The translations under genes were made by a program, and so were the position numbers. A model generated the notes under the pieces. The model worked only from the letters and a program-made list of their open reading frames with translations. It was not told the DNA's origin and did no database searches. Below are positions 42,293 through 46,277 of a stretch of DNA of 46,277 bases, piece after piece. This DNA is from Clostridia bacterium (GTDB lineage Bacteria; Bacillota; Clostridia; UBA1381): the NCBI GenBank assembly GCA_017404065.1, contig JAFRDB010000070.1, positions 1 to 46,277 of the forward strand, read 5' to 3'. Each line of letters starts with the position of its first letter. The stretch's first letter is position 1.

Positions 42293-43186
42293 ATGAAGAA
42301 TGCAGTGAAAAGAATCAGCGCGGTTATCACATCTATAGCTGTTTCCGCAGCAATGTCAGTTACAGTAACTGCCACAAATATCACGGCGAAATATGACAAA
42401 GAAACAGATAACGGAAAAGTTGAATTGACAGGAGTCGAAACTACAGGACGGTCTCAGACCATGATCGTTCTTTCGGAGGATTCTAATTCTGTCAATTATG
42501 ATGAAATCGTGTGGCTGAATCAAAAGGACGACGGAACAGCCTTTGATGCGTTTTATTTGCCAAGAGGAATATATGAAAATCTTGGTGAAGGAAAATCAGC
42601 GACATATTATGTTCGTATAGGAGGCTCTAACGGCACGATACAAAGAACAGAACTTACCATCTCAAAAGAAGTGATACCAACACCAACACCCGAACCAACT
42701 GAAGAGCCGACAGGAGAACCTGCTCCGGAAGCAACACCGACAGCAGAGCCGACAGCAACGCCAACGGTAGAGCCGACAGCAACACCGACACCGGCGCCGA
42801 CAGCAACACCAACGCCGCAACCAACGGCAACACCAACGCCGCAACCAACGGCAACACCAACACCTGAGCCAACGGCAACACCGACACCGGCAGTGCCTGA
42901 TATTAAATGCAGAATTGATGTAAATGAGAAAGAAGCTGAAGCGACTGCACATATTTTGAATACATACGATGAGAATAAGAGTGTTGTGATCGCGGTTACG
43001 CAATACGATTCAGAAGGAAATCTTATCAGCATAAAGTCGAAAGAGATAGTTGTTTCGCCTAATCCGGAATTACCGGGAGTATACACAGTTAAGGCTGATC
43101 AAATCGCGGCAAACGTGGATCATGTCAGATGCTTCATATGGGACGGATTTAAAACTATGAAGCCGATAACAGAGTTAAAGGAATAA
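42293..43186 (+). CDS. Secreted protein with Pro-Thr linker and FxW tail domain
   Basis: The 297-residue protein has a signal peptide (about 1-27), a beta-sandwich domain (about 30-125) like that of the 197-residue neighbour, a Pro/Thr-rich linker (about 126-202; PTATPTPQ-type repeats) and a C-terminal beta domain (about 203-297) ending CFIWDGFKTMKPITELKE. The tail domain matches the ends of the 853- and 1294-residue proteins. The ATG at 42293 lacks a clear Shine-Dalgarno site, whereas a good one (AAAGGGG, about 42228) serves a short out-of-frame ORF just upstream. The start is therefore supported mainly by the signal peptide. Confidence 0.7.
   Translation: MKNAVKRISAVITSIAVSAAMSVTVTATNITAKYDKETDNGKVELTGVETTGRSQTMIVLSEDSNSVNYDEIVWLNQKDDGTAFDAFYLPRGIYENLGEGKSATYYVRIGGSNGTIQRTELTISKEVIPTPTPEPTEEPTGEPAPEATPTAEPTATPTVEPTATPTPAPTATPTPQPTATPTPQPTATPTPEPTATPTPAVPDIKCRIDVNEKEAEATAHILNTYDENKSVVIAVTQYDSEGNLISIKSKEIVVSPNPELPGVYTVKADQIAANVDHVRCFIWDGFKTMKPITELKE
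42808..42855 (+). repeat. 24-bp tandem repeat in Pro-Thr linker
   Basis: Two perfect 24-bp copies encode PTPQPTAT and sit in a longer degenerate PT-repeat tract (about 42676-42897). Copy changes would keep the frame and alter linker length only. Confidence 0.8.
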
Positions 43187-43590: not shown

Positions 43591-43619
43591 TTGAAAAACA
43601 TGTACTAAAGATATATAAT
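43591..43619 (+). promoter_or_regulatory. Promoter of the recombinase gene
   Basis: TTGAAA (43591-43596), a 17-bp spacer and TATAAT (43614-43619) lie 20 bp before the recombinase start codon. This gives the recombinase a strong promoter of its own outside the invertible segment. Confidence 0.75.
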
Positions 43620-43639
43620 AACAAACGGAGGATTATTTG

Positions 43640-44482
43640 ATGAACATTGACAAATTTAAAAACTATCTCATTTCCGAGGAAAAGTCGGAGGCAACTGTTG
43701 AGCGGTATATGCGTGATGTGACGGCGTATATAAAGTGGCTTGACGGTCGTGAGATGAGTAAGGAACTGATGATACGGTACAAGGCAGAGCTTGAGAGCAA
43801 GTATGAAGCTGCAAGCGTAAACACCATGCTTTCATCGCTTAATTCATATTTTGACTATATAGGTCATCCCGAATACAAGGTACGAAATCTGAAAATACAG
43901 AAAAGCACATATATCGAACCGAAGCGGGAGCTTACGAAGGAGGAATATGAGCAACTCTTGAAAACGGCATATGATATGGGTAAGCACCGTATCTATTACA
44001 TTATGCAGACTATATGCTCATGCGGGATTCGTGTATCGGAACTGAAATTCATAACGGTTGAAGCCATAAAGCGCGGTGTTGCATATGTATCAAACAAGGG
44101 CAAGAGCCGAAGAGTGTTTATTCCAAACGCGCTTTCAAAGCTGCTCCAACAATATATAAATCTGAAAAAGATAACGAGCGGAATGATTTTCATAACACGG
44201 ACAGGCATGCCTATTGACCGGAGCAATATATGGGCTGAAATGAAAAGGTTATGCGCAAAGGCGGGAGTGCTTGCATCGAAGGTATTCCCTCACAATTTAA
44301 GACATCTTTTTGCACAAATGTACTATAAAATTCACCAAGACGTAGTACGTCTTGCGGATATACTCGGACATTCGAGCGTGAACACAACAAGAATATATAC
44401 CGCCGAGAGCGGCGAGATACACTATAAAAGGATACAAATACTTGGGCTTGTATTCGACTTCAAGTGTCGAAATACCACATAA
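43640..44482 (+). CDS. Tyrosine recombinase, probable inversion recombinase
   Basis: This 280-residue protein is a complete tyrosine recombinase with an N-terminal core-binding domain (about 1-85) and a catalytic domain (about 95-270). All catalytic residues are present: R131 (CGIRVSEL), K155 (SNKGKSRR), H218 and R221 (PHNLRH), H244 (LGHSS) and Y253. The start at 43640 is set by GGAGG 8 nt upstream; a TTG at 43637 is less likely. The last codons and TAA stop lie inside the left arm of the inverted repeat at 44474-44494. This physical linkage strongly suggests that it inverts the adjoining segment. It is not closely similar to the integrase at 13-936. Confidence 0.93.
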   Translation: MNIDKFKNYLISEEKSEATVERYMRDVTAYIKWLDGREMSKELMIRYKAELESKYEAASVNTMLSSLNSYFDYIGHPEYKVRNLKIQKSTYIEPKRELTKEEYEQLLKTAYDMGKHRIYYIMQTICSCGIRVSELKFITVEAIKRGVAYVSNKGKSRRVFIPNALSKLLQQYINLKKITSGMIFITRTGMPIDRSNIWAEMKRLCAKAGVLASKVFPHNLRHLFAQMYYKIHQDVVRLADILGHSSVNTTRIYTAESGEIHYKRIQILGLVFDFKCRNTT

Positions 44483-44646
44483 TTCTGATTATGTGATAAT
44501 TATACTATGCCTTAAGATGTTTGTCAATAATCTTTCCGGCAATTTAAATAACAATCGTCAGACAGAAAAACCGATTTAATATATAACTCCGACAAAATAA
44601 TACTACCTTTTGCTATCATTCAACGACATAATCAGAATTATGTGGT
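44474..44646. promoter_or_regulatory. Invertible DNA segment (promoter switch)
   Basis: Perfect 21-bp inverted repeats at 44474-44494 and 44626-44646 flank 131 bp. Each repeat contains a dyad, CACATAAT-TCTG-ATTATGTG (last base imperfect on the inner side of the right repeat), which is the architecture of a tyrosine-recombinase core site: two binding arms around a short crossover region. The flanked DNA is AT-rich, non-coding and carries a consensus promoter on the minus strand. It lies directly after a recombinase gene and before a phage-type gene module. Confidence 0.88.
44499..44527 (-). promoter_or_regulatory. Consensus promoter inside the invertible segment
   Basis: On the minus strand TTGACA (44522-44527), exactly 17 bp and TATAAT (44499-44504) form a perfect sigma-A promoter. 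Transcription would start near 44492 and run antisense into the recombinase gene in the sequenced orientation. After inversion it would occupy about 44593-44621 on the plus strand and fire toward 44884. A much weaker rightward candidate (TTGTCA-17-TTAAAT, from 44521) exists in the present orientation. Confidence 0.82.
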
Positions 44647-44650
44647 TAAT

Positions 44651-44677
44651 GCGTAAAAACAGTCACAGTTTTTACGC
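44651..44677 (+). other. 10-bp hairpin in switch leader
   Basis: GCGTAAAAAC and GTTTTTACGC form a perfect 10-bp stem with a 7-nt loop just outside the right repeat. No T-tract follows. In the inverted (on) state it would sit within the first ~50 nt of the transcript. Confidence 0.65.
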
Positions 44678-44703
44678 ATAAAAAGCAAAAGGAGGACAAT
44701 CGA

Positions 44704-44832
44704 GTGGACGGAAAACCGAATAGGCGGGAATGCCGGGGTAGGCACCGTCTTATAACCATACAAGAAAATATAAAGCTAAAAAAGCCTGATTCGACAGCGA
44801 CGCTGCCGGGTCAGGCTTTTAACATTTTCTGA
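44704..44832 (+). CDS. Possible 42-codon leader ORF
   Basis: A GTG codon at 44704 follows GGAGG (44691-44695) by 8 nt and opens 42 basic, polar codons ending in TGA at 44830-44832. The ORF runs through the terminator hairpin at 44780-44820, so ribosome movement could affect terminator folding. It matches no family I know and might be chance. Confidence 0.3.
   Translation: MDGKPNRRECRGRHRLITIQENIKLKKPDSTATLPGQAFNIF
44780..44820 (+). terminator. Terminator/attenuator between switch and phage genes
   Basis: AAAAGCCTGA pairs with TCAGGCTTTT around an inner CAGC/GCTG stem, followed by TTTTAACATTTT. It lies between the switch and the first gene at 44884. On-state transcripts would have to pass it, which implies attenuation or antitermination. 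Confidence 0.75.
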
Positions 44833-44883: not shown

Positions 44884-45210
44884 ATGTCAAAAATCAAATT
44901 GTATCTTGATGTGGTGGAGGAGCTACGCTCGCTTGCCGACTGCATAGAGGCGTTGGCGCGTGGTATGGCGGACGGGGACAGCAGACCGAAGCCGACACAG
45001 GAGCCGAAGGAGATCAAGCCTGCGATAACACATGAAATGCTGCGTGAGCTTGCCATAACGCTTTCGCGCAGCGGCAGGAAGGACGATATAAAGGCTCTGT
45101 TAGAAAAATACGGTGTTAAGAATATAACAGCTGTTTCAGAGACAGACCTTGAGAGCTTCTATGCTGACTTGAAAGCTATGGAGGACGATGACAATGCCTC
45201 CACGTACTGA
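44884..45210 (+). CDS. Small phage-module protein (108 aa)
   Basis: This acidic 108-residue protein has an N-terminal helical segment (MSKIKLYLDVVEELRSLADCIEAL) and a C-terminal GRKDDIKALLEKYGVKNITAVSETDLESFYADLKAM segment. Similar short proteins regularly precede DUF2800 genes in phage and mobile-element replication modules of Clostridia. Database entries sometimes name them 'rRNA biogenesis protein rrp5', which is not informative. The start at 44884 fits AGGAGG about 8 nt upstream better than the GTG at 44878. Its 3' end overlaps the next gene's start by 17 nt. Role unknown, probably in the recombination/replication module. Confidence 0.75.
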   Translation: MSKIKLYLDVVEELRSLADCIEALARGMADGDSRPKPTQEPKEIKPAITHEMLRELAITLSRSGRKDDIKALLEKYGVKNITAVSETDLESFYADLKAMEDDDNASTY

Positions 45211-46277
45211 CAAGAAGGTCAGGCGCACCGAAGGTGCGAGTTTTGCGCGAAGCGCAAAATCTGCTGAAAGTAACCATGCAAGGCTGTCCGCATCCTCGGC
45301 GCATCGCTGGCTTGAATGTCCGCCGTCGGTTGCGGCAACGGAGCATCTACCGGACGAGACGAGCATATATGCCGAGGAAGGCTCCGCAGCGCATGAGGCG
45401 GCGGAATATAAGGTGCGGTGGTATTTGGGAGAGCGTAGCCTTACACCGCCGTCAACGGGAGAATTTGACGCGGATGAGATAGACCGGCACACGGATACAT
45501 ATGCTTTTTATGCAGCTGATAAAATAGAGGAGATCAGAAAGAACTGTCCCGATGCGGTAGTCCTTGTAGAGCAGTATCTCGACTTTTCAAATTATGTCGA
45601 GGACGGATTCGGAACAGGAGACCTTGTTATAGTAGCGGATGATGTGATACATGTTATCGACTTCAAATACGGTAAAGGCGTGCCTGTCTCGGCAATGCGT
45701 AATCCGCAGATGATGCTGTATGCTTTGGGAGCATTAAACCTGTATGACTACTTGTACGATATCCATACAGTAAAAATGTCCATCGTTCAGCCGAGACTTG
45801 ACAGCATATCGGAATGGGAGATATCCGTTGATGATCTGAAGGATTGGGCGGAAAACACTCTGAAGCCCGCCGCCGAGCTTGCGGCAAAGGGCGAAGGTGA
45901 GTTCAAGGCCGGATCGCATTGCCGATTTTGCAAGCTTAAGGCGACCTGCAGGAAGAGAGCCGAATATATGCTTGATGCTGCAAAATATGAGTTCGCACAG
46001 CCTGCAGAGCTTTCCGATGAAGAGATAGCCGATGTGCTGAAGCTGTCGGGTGAGCTTGCAAAATGGGCGGATGATGTGTTTGCGTATGCGCAGGCTAAAG
46101 CTGTGAACGACGGTAAGCGGTGGGACGGATACAAGGTAGTTGAAGGGCGGTCTGTTCGTAAATATGCAAACGAGGGCAAGATAGCGGAGATATGTCAGGC
46201 TAACGGATATAAGCTGCCTGAGATATATAAGCAAACGCTCATAGGCATAACAGATATGGAGAAGCTTATGGGCAAAA
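45194..46277 (+). CDS. DUF2800 RecB/Cas4-like nuclease (partial, 3' cut)
   Basis: This ORF is open to the window end (361 codons visible). From about residue 28 it shows the DUF2800 pattern: HARLSASSAHRWLECPPS, EEGSAAHEAAEY (H67), GTGDLVIV (D143) and VIDFKYGKG (D156, K158), i.e. a PD-(D/E)xK nuclease core. C42 together with C243, C246 and C252 (HCRFCKLKATC) matches the iron-sulphur cysteine layout of Cas4/AddB-type nucleases. These genes sit in phage replication modules, usually beside a DUF2815 single-strand-binding protein and a DNA polymerase. The first ~27 residues are an unusual extension encoded by two palindromes (45224-45259). No later in-frame start precedes the conserved region, so the start at 45194 is preferred. 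Confidence 0.85.
   Translation, partial: MPPRTDKKVRRTEGASFARSAKSAESNHARLSASSAHRWLECPPSVAATEHLPDETSIYAEEGSAAHEAAEYKVRWYLGERSLTPPSTGEFDADEIDRHTDTYAFYAADKIEEIRKNCPDAVVLVEQYLDFSNYVEDGFGTGDLVIVADDVIHVIDFKYGKGVPVSAMRNPQMMLYALGALNLYDYLYDIHTVKMSIVQPRLDSISEWEISVDDLKDWAENTLKPAAELAAKGEGEFKAGSHCRFCKLKATCRKRAEYMLDAAKYEFAQPAELSDEEIADVLKLSGELAKWADDVFAYAQAKAVNDGKRWDGYKVVEGRSVRKYANEGKIAEICQANGYKLPEIYKQTLIGITDMEKLMGK
45224..45259 (+). repeat. Two in-frame GAA-loop palindromes in a gene
   Basis: CGCACC-GAA-GGTGCG (45224-45238) and TTTTGCGC-GAA-GCGCAAAA (45241-45259) are adjacent perfect hairpins with the same GAA loop. They lie within codons ~11-22 of the DUF2800 gene and keep its frame open, adding the sequence RTEGASFARSAK. 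Confidence 0.8.

Follow-up and report, generated by a model that had tools for sequence, protein, structure and literature searches.

Does a promoter flipped by its own recombinase stand in front of the replication genes of a prophage, so that chance inversion may switch on the activity of the virus? The question is raised by the right-hand end of a 46,277-nt contig of a gut Clostridia bacterium, here named C27 and analyzed over its whole length as the window, where a tyrosine recombinase gene, a pair of inverted repeats enclosing a promoter, and phage-type genes follow one another. As the best explanation of the locus as a whole we lean, with moderate confidence, towards a cis-acting inversion switch whose ON form would drive the early module of a prophage.

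The inverted repeats of the switch (44474-44646), at 44474-44494 and 44626-44646, are 21 nt each and 100% complementary, with 131 nt between them (invertible segment, 44495-44625), as the first-pass annotation of this DNA had described; when the window was shuffled 100 times with dinucleotides preserved, the perfect inverted repeats with a loop of 60-500 nt were at most 11-16 bp long, depending on the shuffle, and 21 bp was reached in none (0/100). The TTGACA-17-TATAAT promoter reported within the repeats was likewise found there, running from 44527 to 44499 on the minus strand, and it is the sole perfect match in the 46-kb window, for which 0.03 are expected. The perfect repeats and the promoter are far beyond chance. 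Each repeat holds an 18-bp site, ACATAAT-TCTG-ATTATGT at 44477-44494 on the left and ACATAAT-CAGA-ATTATGT at 44626-44643 on the right. The TCTG spacer proposed earlier was thereby retained, and the 8-bp arms drawn around it were revised to a 7-bp arm, a 4-bp spacer and a 7-bp arm, the eighth arm base being symmetrical only in the left repeat copy. The -10 end lies 4 nt from the left site, and the promoter points at the 3′ end of the recombinase gene, whose last codons run into the left repeat and whose stop codon (TAA, 44480-44482) lies inside it; both this placement of the stop codon and the reading of the switch as OFF in the sequenced form, made at first pass, held. With inverted repeats around a promoter, beside a recombinase, the locus has the make-up of an inverton. 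Two terminator-like hairpins on the minus strand (44336-44354 and 44400-44415) lie just downstream of the OFF-oriented promoter, within the recombinase 3′ end, and could shorten the antisense transcript of the OFF state.

The recombinase gene (43637-44482, plus strand; alternative ATG start at 43640) encodes a 281-aa XerC/D-like tyrosine recombinase, a probable invertase, and is preceded by a promoter-like TTGAAA-17-TATAAT (43591-43619, plus strand, 11/12 consensus), with a similar promoter recognized by eye ahead of a related copy on contig C94. Its product matches PF00589 (E 1.8e-26), residues R132, H219, R222, H245 and Y254 of the R...H-x-x-R...H...Y signature are invariant, all catalytic residues are present, and the nearest solved structures are XerC-like, XerD and XerA proteins; the catalytic domain thus places it among the tyrosine recombinases (Phage_integrase, XerC/D-like). 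The best matches reached 36% in phage records and 50% in a Monoglobus plasmid record, and since the best phage match is only 36%, no annotated phage in the searched collection carries this recombinase; a scan of IMG/VR with its clade gave no relative. A second tyrosine recombinase, distantly related (26% identity), is encoded at the opposite contig end (13-936, minus strand). Classification as a phage integrase, a class defined by an attachment site and not by paired inverted sites, was considered and set aside, as paired inverted sites flank a promoter here and in relatives.

Five more recombinases of the same kind are encoded in the source genome, and searches of relatives and of GTDB genomes added about 100 loci, nearly all from metagenome assemblies of Clostridia. 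Paired inverted ACATAAT-N4-ATTATGT sites were found 3′ of the recombinase in 92 loci, and the N4 spacers were exact reverse complements of each other within the locus in 87/87 loci with two strong sites (some loci occur in both collections), despite the 43 spacer types present across loci, for which random re-pairing would match 3.5%. Once identical loops were removed, 81 unique ones were left, and 79 of them had a promoter at their exit end, compared to 1.3% in shuffled loops, and 32 of these promoters were perfect (12/12). Sixty loops were OFF, with the promoter toward the recombinase, and 19 were ON, with the promoter facing away. Three ortholog groups contained flipped loops (L085 compared to L083, L086 and L093; L059 compared to L058 and L060; L115 compared to L116, L125 and L132), matching at 77-83% as reverse complement versus 57-76% directly, and around them the recombinase (80-92%) and the downstream DNA (55-75%) stay collinear. 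Such flipped orthologous loops evidently record inversion over evolutionary time. Because orthologous loops are inverted and both orientations exist, the family is established as one of invertible promoters with their own recombinase, of the same kind as the invertible promoters of Bacteroides and C. difficile (PMC5903667, PMC6109161). The family supports invertibility at the window locus, where the promoter is very probably worked by the adjacent recombinase.

The usual first genes downstream of these loops encode secreted or surface proteins with leucine-rich repeats or S-layer domains; TetR regulators occupy that position at some loci, as do a GGDEF protein, an ABC transporter, Hsp70 and further proteins. 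In the source genome, the two paralogs that are more distant, on contigs C96 and C58, precede BspA-like leucine-rich proteins. Across 79 unique loops, the spacing between the -10 end and the site falls into groups near 5, 17, 27, 38, 48, 58 and 70 nt, with steps of roughly one helical turn (Rayleigh R 0.72 at a period of 10.7 versus 0.07 at 8, with relatedness among loops inflating the p-value), which suggests that promoter and recombinase site must sit on a fixed face of the helix.

On the far side of the window switch, about 540 bp separate the right repeat from a DUF2800 gene, a stretch taken up by a leader with a short ORF and a strong hairpin and then by the gene for a small phage protein, phrog_408 (44884-45210, plus strand). 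The DUF2800 gene (phage exonuclease, PF10926, phrog_69; 45188-46277, plus strand; E 1e-143), which bears out the DUF2800-type assignment made at first pass, is truncated where the contig stops. Among the nine core genes of Ca. Heliusviridae, DUF2800 comes first, and the Ca. Heliusvirales core comprises DUF2800, DUF2815, PolA, VRR-NUC, SNF2, TerL, portal, Clp protease and MCP (PMC9226167). Contig C26 of the same genome begins within DUF2800, after which come DUF2815, DNA polymerase A, a VapE helicase/primase, an SNF2 helicase and an HNH nuclease. Like C123 and C132, it is collinear with CHVD 5762 (PV036456), a Monoglobales phage of the Ca. Heliusvirales. Given this collinearity and the place of DUF2800 as first Heliusvirales core gene, the module can be identified as a prophage early module. 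Of the 9 core genes, the 8 other than VRR-NUC were searched for, and all 8 were found in the source genome (C17, C26, C27 and C94; C123 and C132). As C27 ends inside DUF2800, its linkage to the rest of the module is derived from homology, and C26 could continue C27, C94 or C17. The first-pass proposal of a phage-type replication module gated by the switch is therefore upheld for the identity of the module, now narrowed to Heliusvirales early genes; its other half, control by the flipped promoter, is put forward here as probable.

Elsewhere in the source genome, a lysin related to that of the CHVD phage is followed by tandem large serine recombinases (L193, equal to C38, 1863-5736), and these by a tRNA-like stretch and tandem repeats with palindromic CGGCACAAAAGCTGTGCCG and tRNA-like ends. 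A junction between this candidate right end of the prophage on C38 and the left ends was sought and not found. Between the small and large terminase genes on C132 (L175, 6716-8974) lies a 752-aa ORF that by eye resembles ribonucleotide reductase.

The leader opens with a hairpin bearing an invariant AGTCACA loop (44648-44682, plus strand; -14.3 kcal/mol, z -6.2), kept in 4/4 related copies within the source genome, with stem sequences that vary yet fold (z of -6.2, -2.7 and -1.9 in three versions; covariation is slight, with four sequences only). It is followed by a 42-aa ORF (VDGKPNRRECRGRH..., 44704-44832, plus strand) with a ribosome-binding-like AAAAGGAGG at 44687-44695, similar ORFs being present in the other three copies, and by a very strong terminator-like hairpin (44780-44820, plus strand; -26.1 kcal/mol, z -6.3) that is nearly invariant across the four (-26 to -28 kcal/mol, z -6.3 and -7.2). 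A terminator scan did not score the latter as an intrinsic terminator, its plus-strand T-tract being weak, and it may be an attenuator. An Rfam scan of the leader and related loci gave no match, the leader core pattern was not found in IMG/VR, and a promoter scan from the switch to the module revealed no other forward promoter of the quality of the switch promoter.

The four copies concerned (C27, C94, C17 and C41) carry recombinases that form one clade in the tree (support 0.99), nested in the inverton family. Three of them (C27, C94 and C17) front phrog_408 and DUF2800, and in the fourth, C41, the same cassette and leader precede a sigma-region-4-like gene, so cassette and phage module can occur apart. 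The site arms have changed together between the copies, with spacers TCTG, TTCG and ATTG each matched within its own locus; the C17 sites are degenerate, with 2 and 3 mismatches. All four copies are OFF. The proposal of a promoter inverted by a tyrosine recombinase is thus borne out by the architecture and, in relatives, by both orientations and flipped orthologs, and not at the locus itself, where no inversion is seen because 4/4 clade copies are OFF. Such uniformity would be expected of a lysogen if the ON form leads to phage replication, and equally of a locked relic.

The block common to the diverged copies on C27, C94 and C17 takes in recombinase, switch, leader and DUF2800; it extends from 26 bp before the recombinase start through DUF2800, reaching farther upstream, to about -215, in C94 and C17, and the adjoining upstream flank of C27 is not common to the other copies. 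Because the block is shared while that flank differs, cassette and phage module appear to move together. C94 and C41 have chromosomal upstream genes in common (about 80% identity). Most simply, a Heliusvirales prophage would have acquired, at its head, a switch that had served a surface protein of the host, and the two would then have multiplied together within the source genome. Among 95 genomes of the order, a search with the clade returned the source genome and one 63% relative only, and a switch before a DUF2800 module occurred in one genome only; neither the 13 DUF2800 loci in relatives nor 80 DUF2800 loci of IMG/VR have a recombinase or comparable repeats in front. As other family members mostly stand ahead of genes for secreted or surface proteins, prophage gating would be a derived use, seen in the source genome alone.

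The mechanism that we infer joins predicted catalysis by the recombinase to flipping at the window locus, transcription through the leader and an effect on induction. The recombinase would bind both 18-bp sites, cut within or around the 4-bp spacer, and flip the 131-bp segment in cis. In the OFF form, as sequenced, transcription from the promoter would run leftward into the 3′ end of the recombinase gene; once ON, the promoter would fire rightward from a transcription start inside the right repeat, and the transcript would cross the first hairpin, the 42-aa ORF and the terminator-like hairpin into phrog_408, DUF2800, DUF2815, PolA, VapE and SNF2. Replication of the prophage would then be set off by a rare flip, in a small number of cells, and the leader hairpin would act as a second lock by attenuation. 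Against the full model stand the -26 kcal/mol hairpin between switch and module, the OFF state of all four clade copies, the degenerate sites of C17, and the occurrence of the arrangement in only one of 95 genomes of the order and in none of the 80 IMG/VR loci. It is somewhat doubtful that the switch flips often enough in living cells to matter for induction.

That same hairpin carries an alternative which we regard as unlikely, namely that the inverton is real and its output is the short ORF or leader RNA only, the hairpin stopping transcription and the prophage genes using another promoter or activator. Its near invariance, the conserved short ORF in 4/4 copies and the different gene behind the C41 cassette would all fit; against this, the hairpin is without a long plus-strand T-tract and went unscored as an intrinsic terminator, no good forward promoter separates it from phrog_408, and the module lies directly downstream in three copies. 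It is quite improbable, too, that the locus is a phase switch of the host chromosome beside which prophages integrated by chance, with no regulatory link. The family does lie mostly beside host genes, often for surface proteins, and the upstream chromosomal genes of C94 and C41 are alike at about 80% identity; however, the block running from 26 bp before the recombinase to DUF2800 is shared by C27, C94 and C17 despite the different flank of C27.

Integrases often sit at prophage ends, and the recombinase does lie at the left edge of the common prophage block, so that it might be the prophage integrase and the repeats parts of an attachment site rather than a switch. We consider this very unlikely: its nearest relatives mostly stand beside paired inverted sites around a promoter in loci without a phage module, the four recombinases nest in the inverton family, the related phage CHVD 5762 has a separate integrase and excisionase, and tandem large serine recombinases come after the CHVD-like lysin of the source genome. 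A switch that once worked and is now locked OFF would account for four OFF copies, for the degenerate sites of C17 and for a sister locus (L015/L055) without its right-hand site; but at the window the sites, promoter and recombinase are perfect, and the concerted change of arms between copies, spacers included, makes a dead relic highly improbable.

Invertible promoters worked by tyrosine recombinases are known from the Tsr-type systems of B. fragilis, RecV of C. difficile (cwpV, flagellar operon) and FimB/fimS of E. coli, which have in common with the window a tyrosine recombinase, short inverted repeats, an inner promoter facing in or out and stochastic ON/OFF states (PMC5903667, PMC6109161, PMC9993118); their targets are surface proteins, flagella and signalling, whereas that proposed for the window is a prophage replication module, and the ACATAAT-N4-ATTATGT site belongs to the Clostridia family. 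Carriage on mobile elements is also known: the IP-ARG of Bacteroidales ICEs combine an invertible promoter with an invertase but control ICE cargo, the resistance genes, and not, as proposed here, the replication genes of the element itself, a phage, in Clostridia (PMC8748976). Phage-linked DNA invertases are known as well, among them Rin, which works a shufflon in prophages of bifidobacteria and was reported to be the first tyrosine invertase encoded by a phage (PMC6109161), and Gin, Cin and Min, but these swap the ends of tail-fibre or receptor-binding genes, with no promoter flipped and no replication genes involved. Ca. Heliusviridae and Heliusvirales (PMC9226167; CHVD 5762) share with the source genome DUF2800, DUF2815, PolA, SNF2, terminase, portal, protease and capsid genes, and CHVD 5762 differs from the window in that sigma-region-4-like genes precede DUF2800, an Int/Xis of its own is encoded and an inverton is lacking. 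The first-pass annotation knew of no description of such an arrangement, and open-access PubMed Central likewise yielded none of an invertible promoter before phage replication genes.

Phage lysis and lysogeny are understood to be controlled mainly through repressors and activators. If the proposed switch operates, prophage activation would, through inversion before the early operon, become heritable and, for each single lineage, a matter of chance; prophages that are active although no stress signal is present would then be accounted for. We suggest only tentatively that the lysogeny-to-lytic decision of a temperate phage is set here, wholly or partly, by heritable inversion through a phage-borne invertase, giving stochastic, repressor-independent activation in a subpopulation. 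The locus further suggests that viruses can take over a switch that serves surface proteins in bacteria. Activation of Heliusvirales would be of wider interest because these phages are widespread in the human gut and linked to metabolic syndrome (PMC9226167).

Among minor observations, the C41 copy (L010, about 970-1440, and L009, 11211-20000) continues after the cassette with the sigma-region-4-like gene and with genes for leucine-rich secreted proteins and for a large serine recombinase, its homology to the other cassettes stopping at a tandemly repeated 23-bp TTCTGATGCGAAAATTATCGAA-type sequence; it may be a remnant or another element that makes use of this cassette. In the 63% relative (L015/L055), the sister recombinase keeps one degenerate site, the remainder of the switch, including the right-hand site, is lost, and a convergent large serine recombinase about 540 bp downstream resembles by eye that of C41. 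In three of the four copies, a gene of a Thr/Pro-rich secreted protein family lies 1-4 kb upstream of the recombinase, the member at 42293-43186 of the window and its C17 and C41 homologs sharing 70-79% DNA identity.
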